Below, one piece after another: positions 526 to 12,344 of a DNA stretch of 30,422 nucleotides. The stretch lies in IMG/VR virus record IMGVR_UViG_3300042291_002225, positions 1 through 30,422 of that record; one strand, 5' to 3'. The notes under the pieces are model-generated. The model was not told the origin of the DNA. It made no database searches and saw only the letters and a list, made by a program, of their open reading frames with translations. The position numbers and the translations under genes are program-made. Source of the DNA: a virus. The stretch's first letter is position 1. Each line of letters begins with the position of its first letter.

Positions 526-2511
526 TCAATTCCGCTTCACGCGGAAGTAGCGCTTCGGCTGGTTCTCGATGCTGTAGAAACGGGTGACCACGCCACCGGT
601 GCCGATGATGTCGGTTTCGACGACCTCCCAGTTCTGGAGGTCGGTCGATCCCTCGATGCGGTAGCTCGCACCATTGCCGGCGTTGAAACGGAATTCGACG
701 GCGGTGCGGATGGTGGAAAGCGCGTCCGGCGTGCTCGAATCCAGCGTCGGATCGAAGCCGGTGTTGATCTCGAACAGGTCGTCGAAGCCGTCTCCGTCGC
801 TGTCCTTGAGAAGCGGATTGGTGCCGTGAGTGACCACCTCGGCGAAGTCGCTGAGACCGTCGCCGTCGGTATCGGCGAGTTTCGGGTTCGTGCCGTGGAT
901 GTTGATCTCCGCCCCGTCGGTCAGGCCGTCGCCGTCGCTGTCGTCCAGCATCGGGTTGGTCTGGTGGGTGTTGACCTCCGCACCGTCGCTCAGGCCGTCG
1001 CCGTCGGTGTCGGTGGCCAAGGGATCGAGGCCCACGCGCTCGAAGAGATAGCCCGCCGCGACGAAGTCGGCCGCGGCATCGGCCCACTGGTTGCTGTTTT
1101 CCATCAGCACGGCGTGGTTCTCCGCGGTGCCGCCATCCGGTTGGCCGCTCAGCCAGCGTGCGTAGGCTGGGGCGTTGCCGTCGGACCACAGCCAGGTGCC
1201 CTCGGAAACGGCGTCGGACAGGCCGAGCCACAGGTAGCCCTGGGTCGTCTTGCGAGCCCGTCCAGCGGCACGGGTGAAGTCGTTGGCATTCGGGAAGCTG
1301 GCGAGGTGGCCGCGGCGGGTGGCGGCATCGGCGGCGGCTTGGGCGTGGGTGAAGGAACCCTCGACCAGGGTGAAGTAGCTACCCGGGTAGCTGAGTTCCG
1401 CGCGGTCCGAAAGCCCGTCGCCGTCGGTGTCGGACTTGAGCGGGTCGGTTCCGTGCTGGGCGATTTCCGCGAAATTGCTCAGTCCGTCGCCGTCGGGGTC
1501 GGAGGCGGCATCGTTGGTTCCGTCACCATTCGTGTCGGCCAGCTTTGGATTGGTGCCGATCAGATTGACCTCCTGGCCGTCGCTGAGGCCATCACCGTCA
1601 GTGTCGGCGGTAGATGGGCTGGTGCCTGCGGTCTGTTCTTGGCCGTCGTTCAAGCCGTCGCCATCGGCATCGGCCGTGGTCGGGCTGGTCGCGTAGCCGG
1701 TTTCCAGCAGGTAGCCGTCGCGGATCGTGGTCGGCGAGCGGTCATACCACTTGCCGATTTCCGCCCCGCCGCCGCCGCTTACCTCGGCGAAGTCGAGGCT
1801 GTTGCCGCTGGTCGAACTCGGGCGGCCAGTGCCCCAGGGCGCGAAGCTGAAGGGCTCGCCGTTGACCCAGGTCCAGGTGCCTTCCACCGCGGCGTCGCTC
1901 GTCCCGATCCACAAGCCGGTGAATTCTTCGAAGGGATCGGCGCCGAGGTTCTGCATCGCGCGGTTCCAGCGGTCTTCGGTCGGGAAGCTGGCGAGGTCAC
2001 CACCCTTGCTCCGGGCGTCGTCGCGAGCCTGCTGCCAGGTGAAGGAACCGGTGATGATCGAGAAGCGACCGACGCCGAGTTCGTAGCCGTCGCTCAGGCC
2101 ATCACCATCGGTATCGGCCAGTGCTGGGTTGGTGCCATAAAGCACCAGTTCATCGTAGGCGGTGAGACCGTCGCTGTCGCTGTCTGACAGGTCCTTCTCG
2201 AAGGTGGCGCCGACCGTCTTGTCGGCATTCATCGTGATCGTCTGCGGGTTGACCGTGCCTGAGGCATCGCCGGTCCAGCCGGTGAAGCGGTAGCCGGGGT
2301 TTGGTGTGGCGGTGATGGTGGCGGAGGCTCCTCCTAGGTCGAAGATTCCACCACCTGACAAGGTGCCGTTCTGAGCAGATGGGAGGGTGAGTGACCAATA
2401 GCGGGTGTCGACCACCGCGTCACCACTCAGGCTCGTATGGGTGGCCGCGTGCAGGAAGCTCGGCGCGAGCAAGCACAGCGCGCAAGCTAAGATGGGAAGA
2501 CGGTTTTTCAT
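526..2511 (-). CDS. Secreted calcium-binding protein with two C-type lectin domains and TSP3 repeats
   Basis: A 661-residue protein starting at the ATG at 2511, chosen because it opens a clear signal peptide (MKNRLPILACALCLLAPSFL, then HAA). An InlB-type divergent beta repeat follows (FTGWTGDASGTVNPQTITMN). Then many calcium-binding thrombospondin type 3 motifs of the form DxDGDGLSDxxE alternate with two C-type-lectin-like domains. The first contains FTGLWIGTSD...WTWVNGEPF, the second LWLGLSD...WLSGQPDGG, with a QPD sugar-binding type motif. The C-terminal module (ASYRIEGSTDLQNWEVV...YFRVKRN) is typical of secreted verrucomicrobial proteins. It is probably extracellular, binding carbohydrate or other cells. 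It sits between two copies of the same terminator, beside a DGR remnant. Whether it belongs to the phage or the host is not clear. Confidence 0.88.
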   Translation of the reverse strand: MKNRLPILACALCLLAPSFLHAATHTSLSGDAVVDTRYWSLTLPSAQNGTLSGGGIFDLGGASATITATPNPGYRFTGWTGDASGTVNPQTITMNADKTVGATFEKDLSDSDSDGLTAYDELVLYGTNPALADTDGDGLSDGYELGVGRFSIITGSFTWQQARDDARSKGGDLASFPTEDRWNRAMQNLGADPFEEFTGLWIGTSDAAVEGTWTWVNGEPFSFAPWGTGRPSSTSGNSLDFAEVSGGGGAEIGKWYDRSPTTIRDGYLLETGYATSPTTADADGDGLNDGQEQTAGTSPSTADTDGDGLSDGQEVNLIGTNPKLADTNGDGTNDAASDPDGDGLSNFAEIAQHGTDPLKSDTDGDGLSDRAELSYPGSYFTLVEGSFTHAQAAADAATRRGHLASFPNANDFTRAAGRARKTTQGYLWLGLSDAVSEGTWLWSDGNAPAYARWLSGQPDGGTAENHAVLMENSNQWADAAADFVAAGYLFERVGLDPLATDTDGDGLSDGAEVNTHQTNPMLDDSDGDGLTDGAEINIHGTNPKLADTDGDGLSDFAEVVTHGTNPLLKDSDGDGFDDLFEINTGFDPTLDSSTPDALSTIRTAVEFRFNAGNGASYRIEGSTDLQNWEVVETDIIGTGGVVTRFYSIENQPKRYFRVKRN

Positions 2512-2560
2512 GGGATCGATGGAATGGATGGGCTGAAGCAATGCGAAATTAGTGGGTGGC

Positions 2561-2602
2561 GGCGGTTCCACCGCCCGGGGCCTTCGAACCCGCCTCCGCG
2601 GG
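2561..2602. repeat. Two adjacent GC-rich hairpins
   Basis: GGCGGT-TCC-ACCGCC at 2561-2575 and CCCGC-CTCC-GCGGG at 2589-2602 are perfect short inverted repeats, between the template-repeat-like segment and the start of the lectin gene. They may be regulatory, or leftovers of the DGR. Confidence 0.45.
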
Positions 2603-2717
2603 CCTACCAGCGCCGGGCGGCGGATCTTGCGTTTCGTCGTCGGGGTAGGCCCCGGACGAGCAGGACGGCGGTCGGTTCAGTCCCTCGCTCAGGCGGGAGC
2701 CATCCGGCCCCGGAGGT

Positions 2718-2780
2718 CTGAGCTGCGGGCCACCCGGAACCCGATGTTGTTGTTCGTGTTCGTCGGGTTGTTGTTGGGGG
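2718..2780 (-). repeat. Template-repeat-like segment of a degenerate DGR
   Basis: In one frame the minus strand reads PNNNPTNTNNNIGFRVARSS: seven AAC and two ACG codons, then a conserved IGFRVARSS end. Adenine-rich AAC runs in this context are characteristic of DGR template repeats, where adenines are randomised during copying. The last 28 bases (2718-2745) match 27 of 28 bases at 3090-3117, the 3' end of the FGE-fold gene. The upstream part of the repeat appears to be lost at the junction with the accessory-gene remnant near 2779. It is either a decayed template repeat or a fragment of a second variable gene. Confidence 0.6.
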
Positions 2781-2927
2781 ACACAGAAGGCCCAGAACGA
2801 ATCCTCGCCGTTCGGCACGAATTCCTTTCGCACTGACGCGATGCGCCCGCCGCGAAGGAGCTGGTTCAGTTCCTCCTTTGCGTTTCCCTGCCCATTGGCG
2901 GGGGATCTGGATGAATTCAAAAGGCAT
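2779..2927 (-). pseudogene. Truncated, frameshifted DGR accessory gene (HRDC-type)
   Basis: From the ATG at 2927, preceded by AGGTAG as ribosome site, the sequence reads MPFEFIQIP. After removal of one base from the G run at 2900-2904 it continues NGQGNAKEELNQLLRGGRIA and then KEFVPNGEDSFWAFCV. Length about 49 residues. The pattern (FxIP, xELNxxLRxxRI, VxxxFVxxGxxSFWAFCV) is the N-terminus I recall for the accessory protein encoded beside some DGR reverse transcriptases (HRDC-containing type). Translation stops matching right where the AAC-rich segment begins, suggesting a deletion. Recognition is from memory; a profile search would settle it. Confidence 0.55.
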
Positions 2928-2952
2928 CTACCTGAAATTTTTCCGAAAATCT

Positions 2953-2973
2953 TTCAGGGGCTTCGCCCCTGAA
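2953..2973. repeat. Perfect 9-bp stem hairpin downstream of the FGE gene
   Basis: TTCAGGGGC pairs with GCCCCTGAA around a TTC loop (GAA on the minus strand). On the minus strand it precedes AAAGATTTT, so it is a weak candidate terminator for the FGE-fold gene. Compact GC-rich hairpins also lie downstream of variable repeats in active DGRs. Confidence 0.55.
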
Positions 2974-3029
2974 CCCCTTTGAGGGCCTACATTTGAATGA
3001 TCATCATGCTCACCGAACCGCTCCGCTCT

Positions 3030-3058
3030 GGCAGGACGGGCTCCGCCTCCGTCCCGCC
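3030..3058. repeat. 10-bp stem hairpin 24 bp after the FGE stop codon
   Basis: GGCAGGACGG pairs with CCGTCCCGCC (one mismatch or wobble) around nine bases. Its position just downstream of a candidate variable repeat fits the hairpin or cruciform seen in characterised DGR targets, but an ordinary mRNA 3' structure is equally possible. Confidence 0.4.
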
Positions 3059-3081
3059 GGTCGCTCCGCTGCCTGCGGGTT

Positions 3082-4158
3082 CTAGGGGACTGAACTGCGG
3101 GCCACCCGGAACCCGATGGGGTAGCCTTTCGAGCCCGCCCCCCAGCCGGCGCGGCTCGCGACGCGGCAGTAGAACGGGCCGTCGTTCCAATTGCTGCCCC
3201 GGTGCACCCGGACCTGGCCCAAATCCTCCCAGTCGTCGAAGCACCATTCCGAAACGTTCCCACTCATGTCCGATAGATCTAGCTCGTTGGCTAGCTTCGT
3301 CGCCACATCTTGGTTCGAGCCGCCACTATTGCTCAAATACCACGCCACCGCATTGACGTCGTTGCTGCCGCTATATTCGTAGCCGTTGGTCTTCAATCCA
3401 CCTCGGGCAGCAAATTCCCATTCCTTCTCGCTCGGCAAGCGATAGCCATTTGCGGTGGCATCAACCGTCGGAATGGCGTCGCCGGTTCGATAGACCGCGG
3501 TGCCCACCTTATAAACCGGAGTCAAACCTTCCTTTTCGCTCCGGGCATTGCACCACTTCAGTGTTTCATACCAACTAACGTCCGTCACCGGGCGGTTCAG
3601 TCCCGTTCCTGCTCCCACACTGTCGATGTCGTAACCGTTGGCGGCGGCCCAAGTGCGGACCGTCTGGAACTCTGCCCAAGTGACCTCGGTCTTCGCCATG
3701 AAAAACGCATCCACGGTCTGTGCTCCAGCCCACGACGAGACGGGCAGGGCTCCCGCTGCAACGTAGGCAAAACCTTCCGGGGCCACACCATCGTCCACCT
3801 TGACTTCGAAGCGCATCGCCGTGCTGTAATTTCCCAACCAGTCGGTTCCCGCGTTCCAGGTGATCACCTTGCCCGTGCCGACCGGCACATTCGGCCCCAC
3901 CGCCCCGCTGAGGGTCGTGGCCGGGACATCGAAGGTTGCTCCGCCGTCGCTGGAAATCCGCAGCGTGACGCCGACCGTCGGCGTGTCCGCGGTCACGTCG
4001 TAGGTGATGTCTACTAGCTTCGTACCCGGCCGTTGCAGCCCTTGGACGTTCGAAACGACTGGATCCGCCGCCAGAAGCGTGCTTGATAGGAAAACGAGCG
4101 ATGCGACGACCTTCAGGCATGTCAGGGCTGCCGAGCCGGATGGTGATTTTCGGTTCAT
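3082..4158 (-). CDS. Secreted FGE/SUMF1-fold protein, candidate DGR target
   Basis: A 358-residue protein; the start at 4158 has GGAAAGCCG just upstream and opens a signal peptide (KVVASLVFLSSTLLAADP). An Ig-like N-terminal region (VVSNVQGLQRPGTKLVDI) precedes a formylglycine-generating-enzyme-type domain. Its hallmarks are MAKTEVTWAEFQ, PVTDVSWYETLKWCN, GYRLPSEKEWEFAARGG, MSGNVSEWCFDDW, HRGSNW and IGFRVARSSVP. Catalytic FGEs use a cysteine pair near the C-terminus, which I do not see, so a binding or structural role is likelier than sulfatase activation. The C-terminal end is shared with the template-like segment at 2718-2745, making it a possible DGR-diversified protein. Similar endings occur in ordinary verrucomicrobial FGE proteins. 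Confidence 0.85.
   Translation of the reverse strand: MNRKSPSGSAALTCLKVVASLVFLSSTLLAADPVVSNVQGLQRPGTKLVDITYDVTADTPTVGVTLRISSDGGATFDVPATTLSGAVGPNVPVGTGKVITWNAGTDWLGNYSTAMRFEVKVDDGVAPEGFAYVAAGALPVSSWAGAQTVDAFFMAKTEVTWAEFQTVRTWAAANGYDIDSVGAGTGLNRPVTDVSWYETLKWCNARSEKEGLTPVYKVGTAVYRTGDAIPTVDATANGYRLPSEKEWEFAARGGLKTNGYEYSGSNDVNAVAWYLSNSGGSNQDVATKLANELDLSDMSGNVSEWCFDDWEDLGQVRVHRGSNWNDGPFYCRVASRAGWGAGSKGYPIGFRVARSSVP
3090..3117 (-). repeat. Variable-repeat-like 3' end of the FGE gene
   Basis: Twenty-eight bases encoding IGFRVARSS plus the following base match 27 of 28 with 2718-2745. Immediately upstream the two copies diverge: AAC-rich codons in one, GWGAGSKGYP codons in the other. The last three variable codons differ only at adenines (AAC to GGC, TAC, CCC). 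Codons further upstream also differ at C and G positions, so a strict adenine-only copy relationship does not hold. Confidence 0.5.
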
Positions 4159-4239
4159 CGGCTTTCCTATCCCAGTCGTCCGTTCCGCGGTCAAGGCTCA
4201 AACCCGCGTTGGGTCGGAGCTTCCATGTGAGATCGGAAC

Positions 4240-4273
4240 AAAAAGCCCCCTCCCGGTTTCCCGAGAGAGGGTG
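4240..4273 (-). terminator. Rho-independent terminator of the capsid operon
   Basis: On the minus strand CCCTCTCTCGG, GAAA and CCGGGAGGGGG form a hairpin followed by CTTTTTG: a classical intrinsic terminator about 30 bp after the capsid stop codon. It shares nearly all of its sequence with the hairpin at 466-496. Confidence 0.85.
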
Positions 4274-4300
4274 CTTGTGGTGATAGCCGAGGTCCCCTGC

Positions 4301-5197
4301 TTACACCGGGCGGGTGATGCGCTCGAGCACCGGTTTGTTGCCGGCGGCGAAGCCATACATCAAGGTGAAGCTCACCTCCTGCTTGCCGAGGCGGCCGTCG
4401 TAGCGGTCACGGACCTGGACGGACAAACCGGTGCGTGGGTCGGTGACGACGCGGATCACGGTGTCGCCGGTGTTGGCGGGCACGTCCGGCACGCGGGCGG
4501 CCATGATGAGTCCCTCGCGGATTCCCGCGAAACCCACCAGACGTTCGGCGTTTTCAGGGAGTGCCGAGTATTCGATCACGGTGAAGCCATTCACGTCGGG
4601 TAGCATGCCAGTGACCACCACGTTGCCCGCCGCCGGGGTGATGTAGGCTTTGTAAAGAGCCTCGTCCTTTTGCAGGGCGTTGTAGTAGTCGGAATTGACG
4701 AACATGAAGCGGCCCATGTCCGGGATGAACCGCTTGTTGAGCTTGGTGCTGATGTCCACCACGGCATTGCGCCCGAATGAGGCGGCGGCAATTTCCGTTT
4801 TGTTGGTGAAATTGGCGTTGATGATCAGCGCCATCAGGTCATCGCTCACCTTGCGGCCGAGGGCGTAGGCCACCTTGTCGGCGTAGCGTTGGTTCAGGTC
4901 GATCTGGCTGGTGGAGCGTTCCACGTCGGTGATGGCATAGCCCGCGTAGGCGTGCTTGTTGATCTTCACGCTGACATCGACCTGTGCCTGGTCATCGGGG
5001 ACGTAGCCGGTGGCGGCAACGAAGTCCTTGGCCACGGTGGGAGTGACGATGTGGGTGACGATGTCCTGGTTGAACTTGACGCTCGCCGATGAGAAGTCGG
5101 TGGCGATCTGTCCGAGGAGCGGGAACTTCGCCAGAAGCGTGGTGAGCGCGGTCTGGGCGATGATCGCGGAATTAACCGTGGCGTTGGTGTTGGGCAT
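4301..5197 (-). CDS. Major capsid protein
   Basis: A 298-residue protein in the place where lambda-like phages carry the major head protein, 6 nt after the protease/scaffold gene. Visible features fit an HK97-fold coat protein of the P22-coat-like type: an N-terminal helix (IIAQTALTTLLAKFPLLGQI), a VDVSVKINKHAYAGYAITDV strand region, a central helix with DRYADK-like spacing, RFMFVNSDYYNALQKDEALY, a MLPDVNGFTVIEYSALP strand pair, and a C-terminal VRDRYDGRLGKQEVSFTLMYG. No own Shine-Dalgarno sequence is obvious, so translation may be coupled to the gene before it. The last gene of the head operon; a strong terminator follows. Confidence 0.85.
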   Translation of the reverse strand: MPNTNATVNSAIIAQTALTTLLAKFPLLGQIATDFSSASVKFNQDIVTHIVTPTVAKDFVAATGYVPDDQAQVDVSVKINKHAYAGYAITDVERSTSQIDLNQRYADKVAYALGRKVSDDLMALIINANFTNKTEIAAASFGRNAVVDISTKLNKRFIPDMGRFMFVNSDYYNALQKDEALYKAYITPAAGNVVVTGMLPDVNGFTVIEYSALPENAERLVGFAGIREGLIMAARVPDVPANTGDTVIRVVTDPRTGLSVQVRDRYDGRLGKQEVSFTLMYGFAAGNKPVLERITRPV

Positions 5198-5203
5198 GGC
5201 AGG

Positions 5204-5665
5204 TTAGCGGGTGAAGTGTTGGGCGAGGTGTTGTTGGTAGAACCTGGCGGCCTCCTCGGGCTTGCGCTCGGTGACCAGGCGGTCGTATTCGGCGACGAGT
5301 TGATCGATGGTGGCTCCGGAAGCTTGCGGGGAATGGTCACCGGCCGGGGTGACGCGGGCCGGGACCGTGGTGCCGGTGGAGGCCGCGACGCGGGCGACTT
5401 CCAACTGGAGCTTGCGGTCGAAATCGGCCTGGGACGCCTGGAGTTCGGTGACGCGGCTCCGCAGCGCGGAGGCTTCGGTGGTCGCCGTATCGCGCTCGGC
5501 TTTGAGCGTGTCGATCTCGGCGGTAAGCAGTTCGACTTCCCCGCGCAATGAGTCCGCGGCGGTCGAAGCTTCATTGAGAAGTTCGGTCTGGGCTTGATGG
5601 TCCCGCTGGAGATTCGCGAGTTCGGTGCGGGCCTGGGCGAGTTCGTCTTCGATGGTCGTGTCCAT
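5204..5665 (-). CDS. Scaffold protein from an internal start within the protease gene
   Basis: ATG at 5665 (MDTTIEDELAQARTEL) would give a 153-residue coiled-coil protein identical to the protease C-terminus, as lambda Nu3 is to gpC. The internal start is preceded by GTTGACACCGG at a 15-nt spacing, the same element that precedes the protease start itself (14 nt) and other phage starts. That is independent evidence that this internal codon is used. No strong Shine-Dalgarno sequence is seen. Confidence 0.6.
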   Translation of the reverse strand: MDTTIEDELAQARTELANLQRDHQAQTELLNEASTAADSLRGEVELLTAEIDTLKAERDTATTEASALRSRVTELQASQADFDRKLQLEVARVAASTGTTVPARVTPAGDHSPQASGATIDQLVAEYDRLVTERKPEEAARFYQQHLAQHFTR

Positions 5666-6487
5666 TGCCCGTGATCCGGTGTCAACCGGCGCGGTGTGAT
5701 AGACCCGCAGGCGGCGCATCGCTTCGGCGCGGTCGGGAACCATGCCCGCGAGGTTCTGGCGCTGGGCCTGCCTGCCGCTGAAGGTCTGGCCTTCCATCGC
5801 CTCGGCGGGGATCGCCCGCCCCTTGGCCAGAACCGCCGTATGGAACTCCCCGGCGATCTCCGCGAGGTTGGAGGAAATGAGTTCGCGCTGGTCGTCGGTG
5901 AGCGGCGTCCCGGGTGCCCCCATCGCCTTGTATTTGCCGACCGAAAAGACCTCCACCTTGATGCCGGCCTTGTCGAGGGCGGCGGAGTTATCGACGACCG
6001 CCTGAACCACGCCGATCGAACCGATCTGGGCGGATGGCGTGACGTAGATCGCCCGCGCCTGGCTGGCCACCCAGTAGGCGGCGGAGCACATCAGGCCGGA
6101 CGAGAAGGCATAGACCGGTTTCTTCTTGTCGAGGGCCGCGACGGCATCGGCAAGCTCCGGCGTGCCGGCCACGGTGCCGCCTGGAGAGTCGATGTGAAGG
6201 AACACCGCCTTGATGTCGTCCCGTCCCGCGGCCTCGCGAAGCGCCGCGCCGATGTCTTCGGAACCCGTGGCACCAAAGAAAATCCGGGCGAACAGGTCCG
6301 GCTTGCGCAGGATCGGACCTTCGATGGCCACCACGCCGATGCCGTCCTCGACGGAGAGCAGCGGGTTCTCGGATGCCTGCTTGGGAAGAAACCCGCCGCG
6401 ATCCACGACTCCCCGCGCGGCGGCGGCCATGGATTGCAGGGCTTCAGGCTGGATCAGCCACTCGCGGTTCTGGATTACCGGACTCAC
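5204..6487 (-). CDS. Prohead protease (S49 family) with C-terminal scaffold domain
   Basis: A 427-residue protein with a GTG start at 6487, 14 nt after a GTTGAC element. Residues about 50-250 are an SppA/SohB-type S49 serine protease, with HIDSPGGTVAG, GLMCSAAYWVAS (nucleophile Ser135) and GKYKAMGAPG (Lys187). The 52-residue Ser-Lys spacing matches the catalytic dyad of bacterial SppA. Residues about 275-427 are a long coiled coil (ELAQARTELANLQRDHQAQT and onward) ending in a short helical tail, the profile of a capsid scaffold. In lambda the gene C protease likewise contains the scaffold Nu3 as its C-terminal part. It cleaves and guides assembly of the procapsid and lies directly upstream of the major capsid gene. 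Confidence 0.88.
   Translation of the reverse strand: MSPVIQNREWLIQPEALQSMAAAARGVVDRGGFLPKQASENPLLSVEDGIGVVAIEGPILRKPDLFARIFFGATGSEDIGAALREAAGRDDIKAVFLHIDSPGGTVAGTPELADAVAALDKKKPVYAFSSGLMCSAAYWVASQARAIYVTPSAQIGSIGVVQAVVDNSAALDKAGIKVEVFSVGKYKAMGAPGTPLTDDQRELISSNLAEIAGEFHTAVLAKGRAIPAEAMEGQTFSGRQAQRQNLAGMVPDRAEAMRRLRVYHTAPVDTGSRAMDTTIEDELAQARTELANLQRDHQAQTELLNEASTAADSLRGEVELLTAEIDTLKAERDTATTEASALRSRVTELQASQADFDRKLQLEVARVAASTGTTVPARVTPAGDHSPQASGATIDQLVAEYDRLVTERKPEEAARFYQQHLAQHFTR
5681..5686 (-). promoter_or_regulatory. GTTGAC start-associated element, internal scaffold start
   Basis: GTTGACACCGG, 15 nt between the hexamer and the ATG at 5665. It lies within the protease reading frame (codons for VDTG). 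Confidence 0.55.
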
Positions 6488-6501
6488 GCCCGGTCGCCGG
6501 T

Positions 6502-6507
6502 GTCAAC
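6502..6507 (-). promoter_or_regulatory. GTTGAC start-associated element, protease start
   Basis: GTTGACACCGG, 14 nt from the GTG at 6487, in the gap after the 130-residue gene. Confidence 0.55.
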
Positions 6508-6519
6508 GAGGCGCTGCCG

Positions 6520-6912
6520 CTACGGGTATTCGTAGGCTGTCTTGCTTCTGATGATTTGGCCGGTTCCGTCCAACTCCATTGAAATCACGCAACCTGTCCA
6601 ACGCTGACCATAGTCGCTGAAGATCGAGTGCAACTTGCTGCTACTGTCGAAGAGCTCGCGGGTGAAATCGTCGGCTTCATCTCCGTTCTCCGGGTTGGTC
6701 AGCCGGTGATGAATCGCGAGAGGTCCGAAACCGGGGAGTCCCGTGACCTTGAGTTCCAGGGTGGCGGCCATCCAGCCGGCCGGGATGCATGCGAGGGCAT
6801 TGTCGAAAACCTGCTGCTTGGCGGCTTGCGACTGCTCGTGGAACTCGAACTGATTGCCAGGGCCCATCGTCGGGGCACCTATACCGGTTACCGGCTCACC
6901 GGACAAGCTCAC
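6520..6912 (-). CDS. Small phage protein between portal and protease, function unknown
   Basis: A 130-residue protein. The GTG start at 6912 overlaps the portal stop by four bases (GTGA); a later ATG (MGPGNQFEF) is an alternative. The sequence contains a short helix (QAAKQQVFDNALACIPAGWM), alternating strands (TLELKVTGLPGFGPLAIHHR, WTGCVISMELDGTGQI) and a helix between them. It faintly recalls YezG/DUF600-type immunity proteins in the 'HHRLTNPENGDE' region, but I do not assign it. The position suggests a head-assembly accessory or a cargo gene inserted into the head operon. Confidence 0.65.
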   Translation of the reverse strand: MSLSGEPVTGIGAPTMGPGNQFEFHEQSQAAKQQVFDNALACIPAGWMAATLELKVTGLPGFGPLAIHHRLTNPENGDEADDFTRELFDSSSKLHSIFSDYGQRWTGCVISMELDGTGQIIRSKTAYEYP

Positions 6913-8351
6913 TTCTCCGCGGAGCGCACCCCACCCGGCAGCAGCGGAACCGCCGAGCCAGCGGACGGCTTCCACAGCATTTCCACCGGCACGCCATGTT
7001 TGGCCGCGGTCTCCAGGATCAGCTTGGCGTCGGCTGCCCGCCGCTCGATCTCCTCGCCGAAGTCGGCACCGAGTTCCTGGAAGTGATCCGACAGCGTCTT
7101 GAGTCCCATCTCCACGTCGGCGCGGTTCTGCTGGGCTTCGCGTCCGGCATCGACGGTCACCCGCTTGGGTGGGACGGAGCTGATCTTCCACCAGCCGGCA
7201 GCGGGCGGCAGGATTCCCCGGCTGATCGCGTCGCCGATGACATAGGCCCACACCGGCCGGATGAGTCGGCGTTCGAGGATCATCTGTCGGAACGAGAAGC
7301 GACGGTCGGCCTTGGCGACGATCAGCCTAACACCCGCGCCGCCGATCTTGCTGGAATCCGCCGCGAACTCGAACGGGATCATCCCGAGCGCGGAATCCCG
7401 CCGCAGGTGTTCCAGGAAGCCGGTGAAGGTGGGCGACGGGCGGTTCGACTGGAAACTGTCGAGAGACTCGTCGGGCTTCAGCGCGATCAGCTTGCCGCCT
7501 ACAATGCGCTGGAGCGTGACCGGATCGCTGCCCTCCCCCGCTCCGGCATGGCCGCCGACCACGAAGTCGCCGTTGTCGTCAATTTCACCCCGCGCCGTCT
7601 TGAGGATGCGGGACACGTCGGCGTTGTCCTTCACCGCGTGCTTCTCCAGCGCCAGCAACTCCATCTCGTCGAGGGCGTGGTTGATGGAATGCTGGATGGT
7701 CGGATGGGAGCGCACTCCGCCCGCCCATTCCGGCTCGTGGATATGGAGGATCGCCTGGGCCGCCAGATCGCGGGCGATGCCGTCATCCTCCAGCACCCGG
7801 TAGAAGATCGGCGCGCCCCAGGCATCGAGGCCGACTCCGTCGATGGTGTCCTTCGACCCGAACTCATCCCCGACGCGGTGGGACTCGATCAGCTGGATCT
7901 TCGGTTCGCCGTCGGCATCGCGGGTCTTGTGGATGAAATACTCGCCGTCGATGTCCATGCCCCGGCAGACGAGCGCCTGGCACTCCTCGAACGAGAAGCG
8001 GCGCGTCACCTCACAGCGGGCCGACCACAGCGCGAAGTGGGCCTCGGCGGCGCGGTTCCAGTCCGGATCGGGCGACTGCGCCTGGACCCGGATGCCGTCG
8101 CCGGTCGAGTAGATCGCCATGTTGGCGACCAGCTCGCGCATGAAGCCGCTGTTCTTGTGAAGGTAGCGAGACTTGCGGACCAGCTCGCTGCGGACGCCGG
8201 GCGTGAGTTCGTTGCGGGCGTCCGTGGGTGCAAACCCCGGAACCAATCCACGGCGAGACGACCAGTTGGCAGCCTCGAACGGCGATCCCCATGCCTTCGG
8301 AACCAAGACGGGCGGCAGCCAGCGCATGGCGATTTGCTTGAGGCTGGTCAT
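6909..8351 (-). CDS. Portal protein (lambda gpB family)
   Basis: A 480-residue protein starting MTSLKQIAMRWLPP at 8351, where ATGA overlaps the preceding gene's stop. Lambda-type portal hallmarks are visible: an early WSSRRGLVPGFAPTDARNEL, RKSRYLHKNSGFMRELV, a central GMDIDGEYFIHKTRDADGEP and LIESHRVGDEFG, HIHEPEWAGGVRSHP, and a late EFAADSSKIGGAGVRLIVAK followed by helices. It forms the dodecameric DNA channel at the capsid vertex and docks terminase and connector. It follows a gpW-like gene and precedes the protease, as in lambda. Confidence 0.9.
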   Translation of the reverse strand: MTSLKQIAMRWLPPVLVPKAWGSPFEAANWSSRRGLVPGFAPTDARNELTPGVRSELVRKSRYLHKNSGFMRELVANMAIYSTGDGIRVQAQSPDPDWNRAAEAHFALWSARCEVTRRFSFEECQALVCRGMDIDGEYFIHKTRDADGEPKIQLIESHRVGDEFGSKDTIDGVGLDAWGAPIFYRVLEDDGIARDLAAQAILHIHEPEWAGGVRSHPTIQHSINHALDEMELLALEKHAVKDNADVSRILKTARGEIDDNGDFVVGGHAGAGEGSDPVTLQRIVGGKLIALKPDESLDSFQSNRPSPTFTGFLEHLRRDSALGMIPFEFAADSSKIGGAGVRLIVAKADRRFSFRQMILERRLIRPVWAYVIGDAISRGILPPAAGWWKISSVPPKRVTVDAGREAQQNRADVEMGLKTLSDHFQELGADFGEEIERRAADAKLILETAAKHGVPVEMLWKPSAGSAVPLLPGGVRSAEK

Positions 8352-11960: not shown

Positions 11961-12020
11961 CATAATGTTTGACAGACCGCACAAAATTGCCCATTCGTGT
12001 CCATTCTATCAGACATTATG
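11961..12020 (+). promoter_or_regulatory. hipBA promoter/operator with inverted half-sites
   Basis: CATAATGTTTGACA at 11961-11974 and its near-inverted copy at 12007-12020 (TATCAGACATTATG; 12 of 14 positions agree) flank a short spacer. TTGACA at 11969-11974 within the first site could be a -35 box, with a poor -10 around 11992-11997. HipB-type repressors bind such palindromic half-sites for autorepression. The second site runs into the ATG at 12018. Confidence 0.6.
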
Positions 12021-12344
12021 GGACGAGAAACCAGCACCCTTTTACCCAAGCACGAGCGTCTCCTCGCCGAGTTGGGCGAGAATCTCAGACTGGCGCGGTT
12101 GCGGCGAAAGCTGAGTGCCGAACAGGTCGCGGAGCGGGCGGGTGTCAGTCGTTCGACGCTCCATCTGATGGAAAACGGATCAGCCGGCACTTCGTTGGGC
12201 AAGCTCGTGCAGGTGTTGGCTGTTCTGGGACTGGAGCAAGACCTCTCCGCGGTCGGTATCGACGATGTTCTGGGCCGCAAGCTGGAAGACGCTCGTCTCA
12301 CTGAGACCCGGCGACGGGCACCGAAAAGGAAACTCAAGGAATGA
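12018..12344 (+). CDS. hipB: HipB-like antitoxin, XRE-family repressor
   Basis: A 108-residue protein from the ATG at 12018 (MGRETSTLLPKHERLLAELG). A GTG at 11997 would add seven residues but lies upstream of the probable transcription start. The XRE-type helix-turn-helix is clear: LGENLRLARLRRKLSAEQVA, ERAGVSRSTLHLMENG, TSLGKLVQVLAVLGL. A basic tail (RRRAPKRKLKE) follows. The stop overlaps the hipA start by four bases. It would bind HipA and repress the pair through the inverted repeat at 11961-12020. It is on the opposite strand from the phage structural genes, in keeping with an inserted module. Confidence 0.85.
   Translation: MGRETSTLLPKHERLLAELGENLRLARLRRKLSAEQVAERAGVSRSTLHLMENGSAGTSLGKLVQVLAVLGLEQDLSAVGIDDVLGRKLEDARLTETRRRAPKRKLKE

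Follow-up and report, generated by a model that had tools for sequence, protein, structure and literature searches.

Remains of a diversity-generating retroelement in a phage genome fragment, very probably left by a single 1,398-bp deletion

Diversity-generating retroelements (DGRs) with an HRDC accessory gene and FGE-fold targets are known from Treponema denticola (PMC4891356), and the replacement of the variable region (VR) of a target gene by adenine-mutated cDNA, worked out for BPP-1 (PMC3240598), has been proposed for T. denticola as well (PMC4891356). In the group 3 DGRs of DiGReF, the template repeat (TR) overlaps the open reading frame of the reverse transcriptase (RT) (PMC3521204). 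How DGRs end is sparsely documented. T. denticola isolates without RT and TR that carry target genes are regarded as remnants (PMC4891356), and for incomplete or degraded loci of cyanobacteria (PMC7517822) and of Thiohalocapsa PB-PSB1 (PMC10907252), removal of the machinery or action in trans has been proposed. Here, we describe a phage locus that very probably is what remains of a DGR of the FGE-target/HRDC-accessory type, with its TR at the 3' end of the RT gene (the DiGReF group 3 layout), after loss by one 1,398-bp deletion. Orphan targets and degraded DGRs are already known from T. denticola, cyanobacteria and Thiohalocapsa, and the locus is a clean, recurrent example and not a new system; the new elements are the exact anatomy with which a phage lost its DGR, the recurrence of such losses in Verrucomicrobiota and their link to gene fusion. 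No prior account of such phage DGR loss was found in the open literature, most subscription journals being outside the scope of the search. One cassette can be aligned in its intact, half-deleted and fully deleted states, with exact breakpoints, so that the discarding of mutation machines after use becomes a testable question.

The locus lies on virus record IMGVR_UViG_3300042291_002225, a genome fragment that was analysed over its 30,422 nucleotides (hereafter, the window) and that carries genes for terminase, portal, S49 protease and major head protein. The scar sits within the phage structural region, and all features of the locus are on the minus strand. The upstream neighbour is the major head protein gene (4301-5197; phrog_283, E 3.8e-27; PF25209). 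It is followed by the FGE-fold target gene (3082-4194; likely start ATG 4158, stop 3082), which is intact, as stated in the initial annotation, and whose FGE-sulfatase domain was confirmed in a Pfam profile search of the window (PF03781, E 1.3e-31). Its final 40 codons, up to GFRVAR, form the VR (3097-3216), as delimited by alignment to intact TRs and VRs, and end in an IMH-like conserved 3' end that reaches about 3090. Between the target gene and a TSP3-repeat/C-type-lectin gene that adjoins the scar (526-2571; PF18884, PF00059) lie about 500 bp of seeming junk, which comprise, in minus-strand order, a spacer that contains a strong inverted repeat, a 49-codon fragment, an AAC-rich piece and about 140 further bases.

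By homologue comparison, the fragment consists of the first 49 codons of an HRDC-type DGR accessory gene (2780-2927), truncated and frameshifted; from ATG 2927, its frame is restored if a single base is dropped from the G run, as initially noted, and the homologous fragment in viral contig L001 is open without any change. The AAC-rich segment (2780-2718) does translate to NNNPTNTNNNIGFRVARSS and matches the 3' end of the FGE gene at 27 of its last 28 bases, with a 23-mer core that has only these two sites in the window. Aligned to the TRs of the intact cassettes L002, L013, L014 and L015, it represents the 3' remnant of a TR (2715-2776), which meets the accessory fragment at about 2777-2780 and is followed by a TR 3' flank (2571-2714) conserved with intact cassettes, among them the intact DGRs of genomes G005 and G006. 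A DGR-type RT is absent from the locus, as is a full TR paired with the VR, about 60 TR bases being left, and the RVT_1 profile had no match in the window, L001 and L003 records. With no RT and no complete TR, the locus is not a functional DGR, and no diversification in cis is possible. A TR piece, an accessory piece, an FGE target with a 3' VR and relatives with adenine-specific VR differences identify it as a DGR remnant.

Searched against 2.9 million viral contigs, the 49-residue fragment matched three. It is 100% identical to one viral contig and 90% to another, and the likeness of the remnant pieces to their counterparts is far above chance. Viral contig L002 carries a complete DGR, with an FGE-type target gene that includes Ig domains (3929-5806; FGE-sulfatase, E 5e-53), an accessory gene (6001-6468; HRDC, PF00570, E 1.5e-14), an RT gene (6465-7640; RVT_1, E 7.9e-18) and, nested in the 3' portion of the RT frame, a TR that translates to NRGGSWNNNANNCRVANRNNNNPSNTNNNIGFRVAR. 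The cassette order target-VR / HRDC accessory / RT / TR is shared by L002 and by L013-L016, bacterial MAG contigs from Akkermansiaceae, other Verrucomicrobia and one labelled Chthoniobacter, and is identical in L020, labelled Treponema. The host of the window phage is probably a member of the Verrucomicrobiota as well. In intact homologues, the 49 residues form the N-terminus of the HRDC-domain accessory protein (about 155 aa), encoded between a diversified FGE target and the RT, which bears out the assignment of the fragment to a DGR accessory gene; the 49-aa piece itself had no Pfam match because the HRDC domain is in the lost part. In the working form (L002, L013-L016), the RT, with the HRDC protein as presumed helper, reads the TR RNA and introduces errors at its adenines, and the resulting cDNA replaces the VR at the end of the FGE-fold gene. 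The target is probably a surface or adhesion protein. No relative that has an intact DGR at the very locus of the window emerged from a lectin-gene scan.

The family of the window resembles the T. denticola DGR in its FGE-sulfatase-type target and in an HRDC accessory gene that adjoins the RT gene (PMC4891356). However, the accessory gene is located between VR and RT in the window's family and between TR and RT in T. denticola, and, unlike in T. denticola, TR and RT 3' end overlap. L002 and L013 correspond to DiGReF group 3 in that the TR is embedded in the RT frame, in its 3' part, whereas in the window the RT and half of the TR are gone. The positions of the RT frame and of the TR within its 3' end (6465-7640 in L002 and 6465-7637 in L013) mean that the RT C-terminus and the TR share bases in these two cassettes.

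Compared with L002, L014 and L015, the window scar resolves into two collinear blocks, separated by a gap of 1,398 bp in each comparison. The first block, spacer and accessory start, has 75-78% identity over 187-204 bp; the second, TR tail and 3' flank, has 81% over 207-213 bp in L014 and L015, and window 2776-2571 has 80-81% over about 206 bp to the intact DGRs of G005 and G006. About seven bases lie at the joint between the two blocks. By this alignment, an internal deletion from accessory codon 49 to mid-TR took out the accessory gene past that codon including the HRDC domain, the whole RT and the TR's 5' half. Given the order target-accessory-RT-TR, a single 1,398-bp deletion accounts for everything. 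The initial annotation had accessory gene and TR truncated into each other, which is what the joining of codon 49 to mid-TR amounts to, and had the RT lost or located elsewhere. None is present on the 30-kb record, and this second claim can be refined, as the place of the RT between accessory gene and TR puts it in the same deletion and requires no separate event. The window thereby differs from the T. denticola remnants in that its accessory-TR junction is kept, which ties the loss to one deletion, and in its location in a phage. It is like the cyanobacterial and Thiohalocapsa loci in having a VR-homologous target and no local RT, and differs from them, as far as the available descriptions go (PMC7517822, PMC10907252), in its accessory-TR fusion.

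GFRVA-like ends are common in FGE-type genes. The 27/28 match by itself would be compatible with a locus that is no DGR relic but has the conserved, AAC-rich end of another FGE gene next to an unrelated pseudogene of 49 codons. This is extremely improbable, as the homology to intact DGRs does not stop at the TR piece but extends through its 3' flank, over about 206 bp in all, and the fragment is a DGR accessory N-terminus at its normal place after the target. Alignment with real TRs and continuation into their flank place the AAC-rich stretch on the TR side and not at the end of another FGE gene family, and the reading of the locus as a wrecked DGR, put forward from the window alone, was essentially right in the light of the intact homologous cassettes.

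Differences between VR and TR are confined to adenines in the five intact cassettes. In L002 and L013-L016, the VR is changed relative to its own TR at 22/33, 18/32, 18/32, 17/32 and 22/31 A sites and at 0/78, 0/79, 0/79, 0/79 and 0/80 non-A sites; these DGRs are active or were so very recently. The L001 VR differs from the window TR remnant at 10/17 A and 0/34 non-A sites (Fisher p 1.5e-6) and the L009 VR at 10/17 and 2/34. The fit of the L009 VR to the window TR indicates that the L009 lineage probably was once under such a DGR and lost all its other parts. The window VR, in contrast, differs from the window TR remnant at 14/17 A and 8/34 non-A sites; given these non-A mismatches, it was not directly written by the retained TR version and may be older, derive from another TR or be recombination-borne.

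About 40 bp past the VR, a 10-bp GC-rich inverted repeat, GGCGGGACGG ... CCGTCCTGCC (3030-3058, minus strand), is a candidate DGR target hairpin or cruciform according to DNA folding. Its loop is not GRNA, the target-site criterion being a GC-rich hairpin or cruciform 4-34 bp after the VR with a GRNA loop (compare PMC3240598). The hairpin is identical in L001, L173 and L174, has a counterpart of other sequence and similar structure in L176 (DNA fold), and no comparable hairpin was found in L002. Since target, VR and hairpin survive in the window, the deletion would have fixed the variant then present, unless RT and TR act from elsewhere, and we infer that the VR is now frozen. The surviving target site (VR end and hairpin) could in principle be used in trans.

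The latter would apply if the FGE gene were a remote or satellite target, still diversified by machinery (RT and TR) located in the host chromosome or elsewhere in the phage, with the accessory stub having come along when the target was copied. As the record is a fragment, an RT could act in trans, and the retained VR 3' end and hairpin fit such a use. Together with about 98 bp of its 3' flank, in which the hairpin lies, the VR end recurs at 97-98% identity in L173 (3876-4083) and L174 (4003-4101) behind otherwise unrelated FGE genes of genome G143 (contigs C45 and C49), whose target proteins share only about 36% identity with that of the window; the exact TR pattern was not found in G143. Trans action has also been inferred in Thiohalocapsa PB-PSB1 (PMC10907252), and L001 and the window differ in VR despite their common scar. 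We nevertheless regard diversification in trans as unlikely: the TR tail and its 3' flank, both present in the window, would not have travelled with a copied target, and the window VR, which L006 shares unchanged, has non-A mismatches to the window TR. In-trans writing was rejected for L022, which has 15/79 non-A mismatches to the TR of the intact DGR of its own genome (L015).

The scar in L006 is identical base for base, and window positions 2401-8000 match exactly, VR included, within an overall identity of 99.2% over 12 kb (two records compared). Such VR identity would not be expected for an active DGR. L001 has the scar with small differences from the window, and the presence of the scar in L006 and L001 shows that it is not an assembly artefact of the window. 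In a search over all viral contigs, the DNA patterns of junction and TR remnant occurred in L001 and L003/L006 only. L001 and the window share 70% identity around the VR and 79-95% along the target gene, in contrast to about 700 bases of scar and flanks that are 94-100% identical, the flanking genes being mostly at 77-95%. This largely non-coding segment (window 2401-3100, L001 about 1930-2630) is thus conserved above its neighbours. Its high identity points to recent recombination or constraint, and neighbouring phage genes swap partners among L001, L003 and the window.

Another reading is that the fused frame (accessory codons 1-49 plus RT tail, 125 aa) is a new functional gene. It is open in L001 and lies in the segment that exceeds its flanking genes in identity; yet it is frameshifted in the window and L003/L006, and the conserved segment includes non-coding flanks, as after recent recombination, which makes a new gene very improbable. 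A common scar with different VRs in window and L001 requires recombination or continued diversification after the deletion. We read the pattern as a scar segment moved between phages by recombination; post-deletion diversification is the rival explanation of the differing VRs, and the comparison is one of two sequences.

In other relatives, the target is fused to the lectin gene and the cassette is absent. At the same phage locus, the FGE domain and the TSP3/lectin part are encoded in one ORF, of 1122 codons in L010 (2021-5386) and 1085 codons in L012 (2027-5281), and L009 (3561-5108) and L011 show the same joining as far as the contigs reach. The linkers differ among L009, L010 and L011/L012, and L011 and L012 have nearly identical, TR-unlike ends. 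In the fused frames of L009, L010 and L012, the former VR is in mid-protein.

Accessory-to-TR deletions recur elsewhere. In L017, the accessory gene is cut after about 104 codons and joined to the TR tail; in L019, it is cut after about 54 codons and joined just beyond the TR, with an 8-bp overlap of the two blocks that resembles microhomology. Both deletions are independent of that in the window. L018, L021-L025, L028 and L035-L037 keep roughly 14-110 accessory codons followed by other sequence, and the stubs of L021, L022 and L024 run into a relative of the lectin gene. In a census of the 387 genomes in the order of G004, an RT was on the same contig for 20 of 21 full-length accessory genes and for none of 13 N-terminal-only genes among the matches listed (hypergeometric p about 1.5e-8); the stubs were read by eye except those of G064, G049, G176, G138 and G301. 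The genomes are drafts, so that absence of the RT from a genome is weak evidence and adjacency the stronger statement; the exact TR pattern was not found in the stub-bearing draft genomes G008, G009 and G011-G015. With 13 of 34 accessory-gene starts among the matches listed being stubs without an RT on the contig, surveys keyed to the RT miss many former targets. A lone TR tail with flank is located in genome G363 (L175, 3560-3870, contig C253, minus strand) behind an unrelated small gene that looks HicA-type toxin-like, and no RT was seen nearby.

It is tempting, and quite speculative, to propose that DGR demolition is a recurrent and selected route in Verrucomicrobiota and their phages, in which the RT-TR block is deleted at many independent breakpoints after a useful variant has arisen, the VR is fixed and some binding domains are fused to the neighbouring lectin/TSP3 gene (L009, L010). 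If so, the DGR would be a temporary tool for making adhesins.

Two further features of the window concern its gene content. The FGE gene and the TSP3/lectin gene have apparent signal peptides at their N-termini, as judged by eye, and lie right behind the head gene (526-4194), an odd site for secreted proteins; they are perhaps lysogenic-conversion genes. Farther along, a HipA-like kinase gene (PF07804; 12341-13609, plus strand) behind a small helix-turn-helix-like gene (11997-12344) likely forms with it a HipBA toxin-antitoxin pair.
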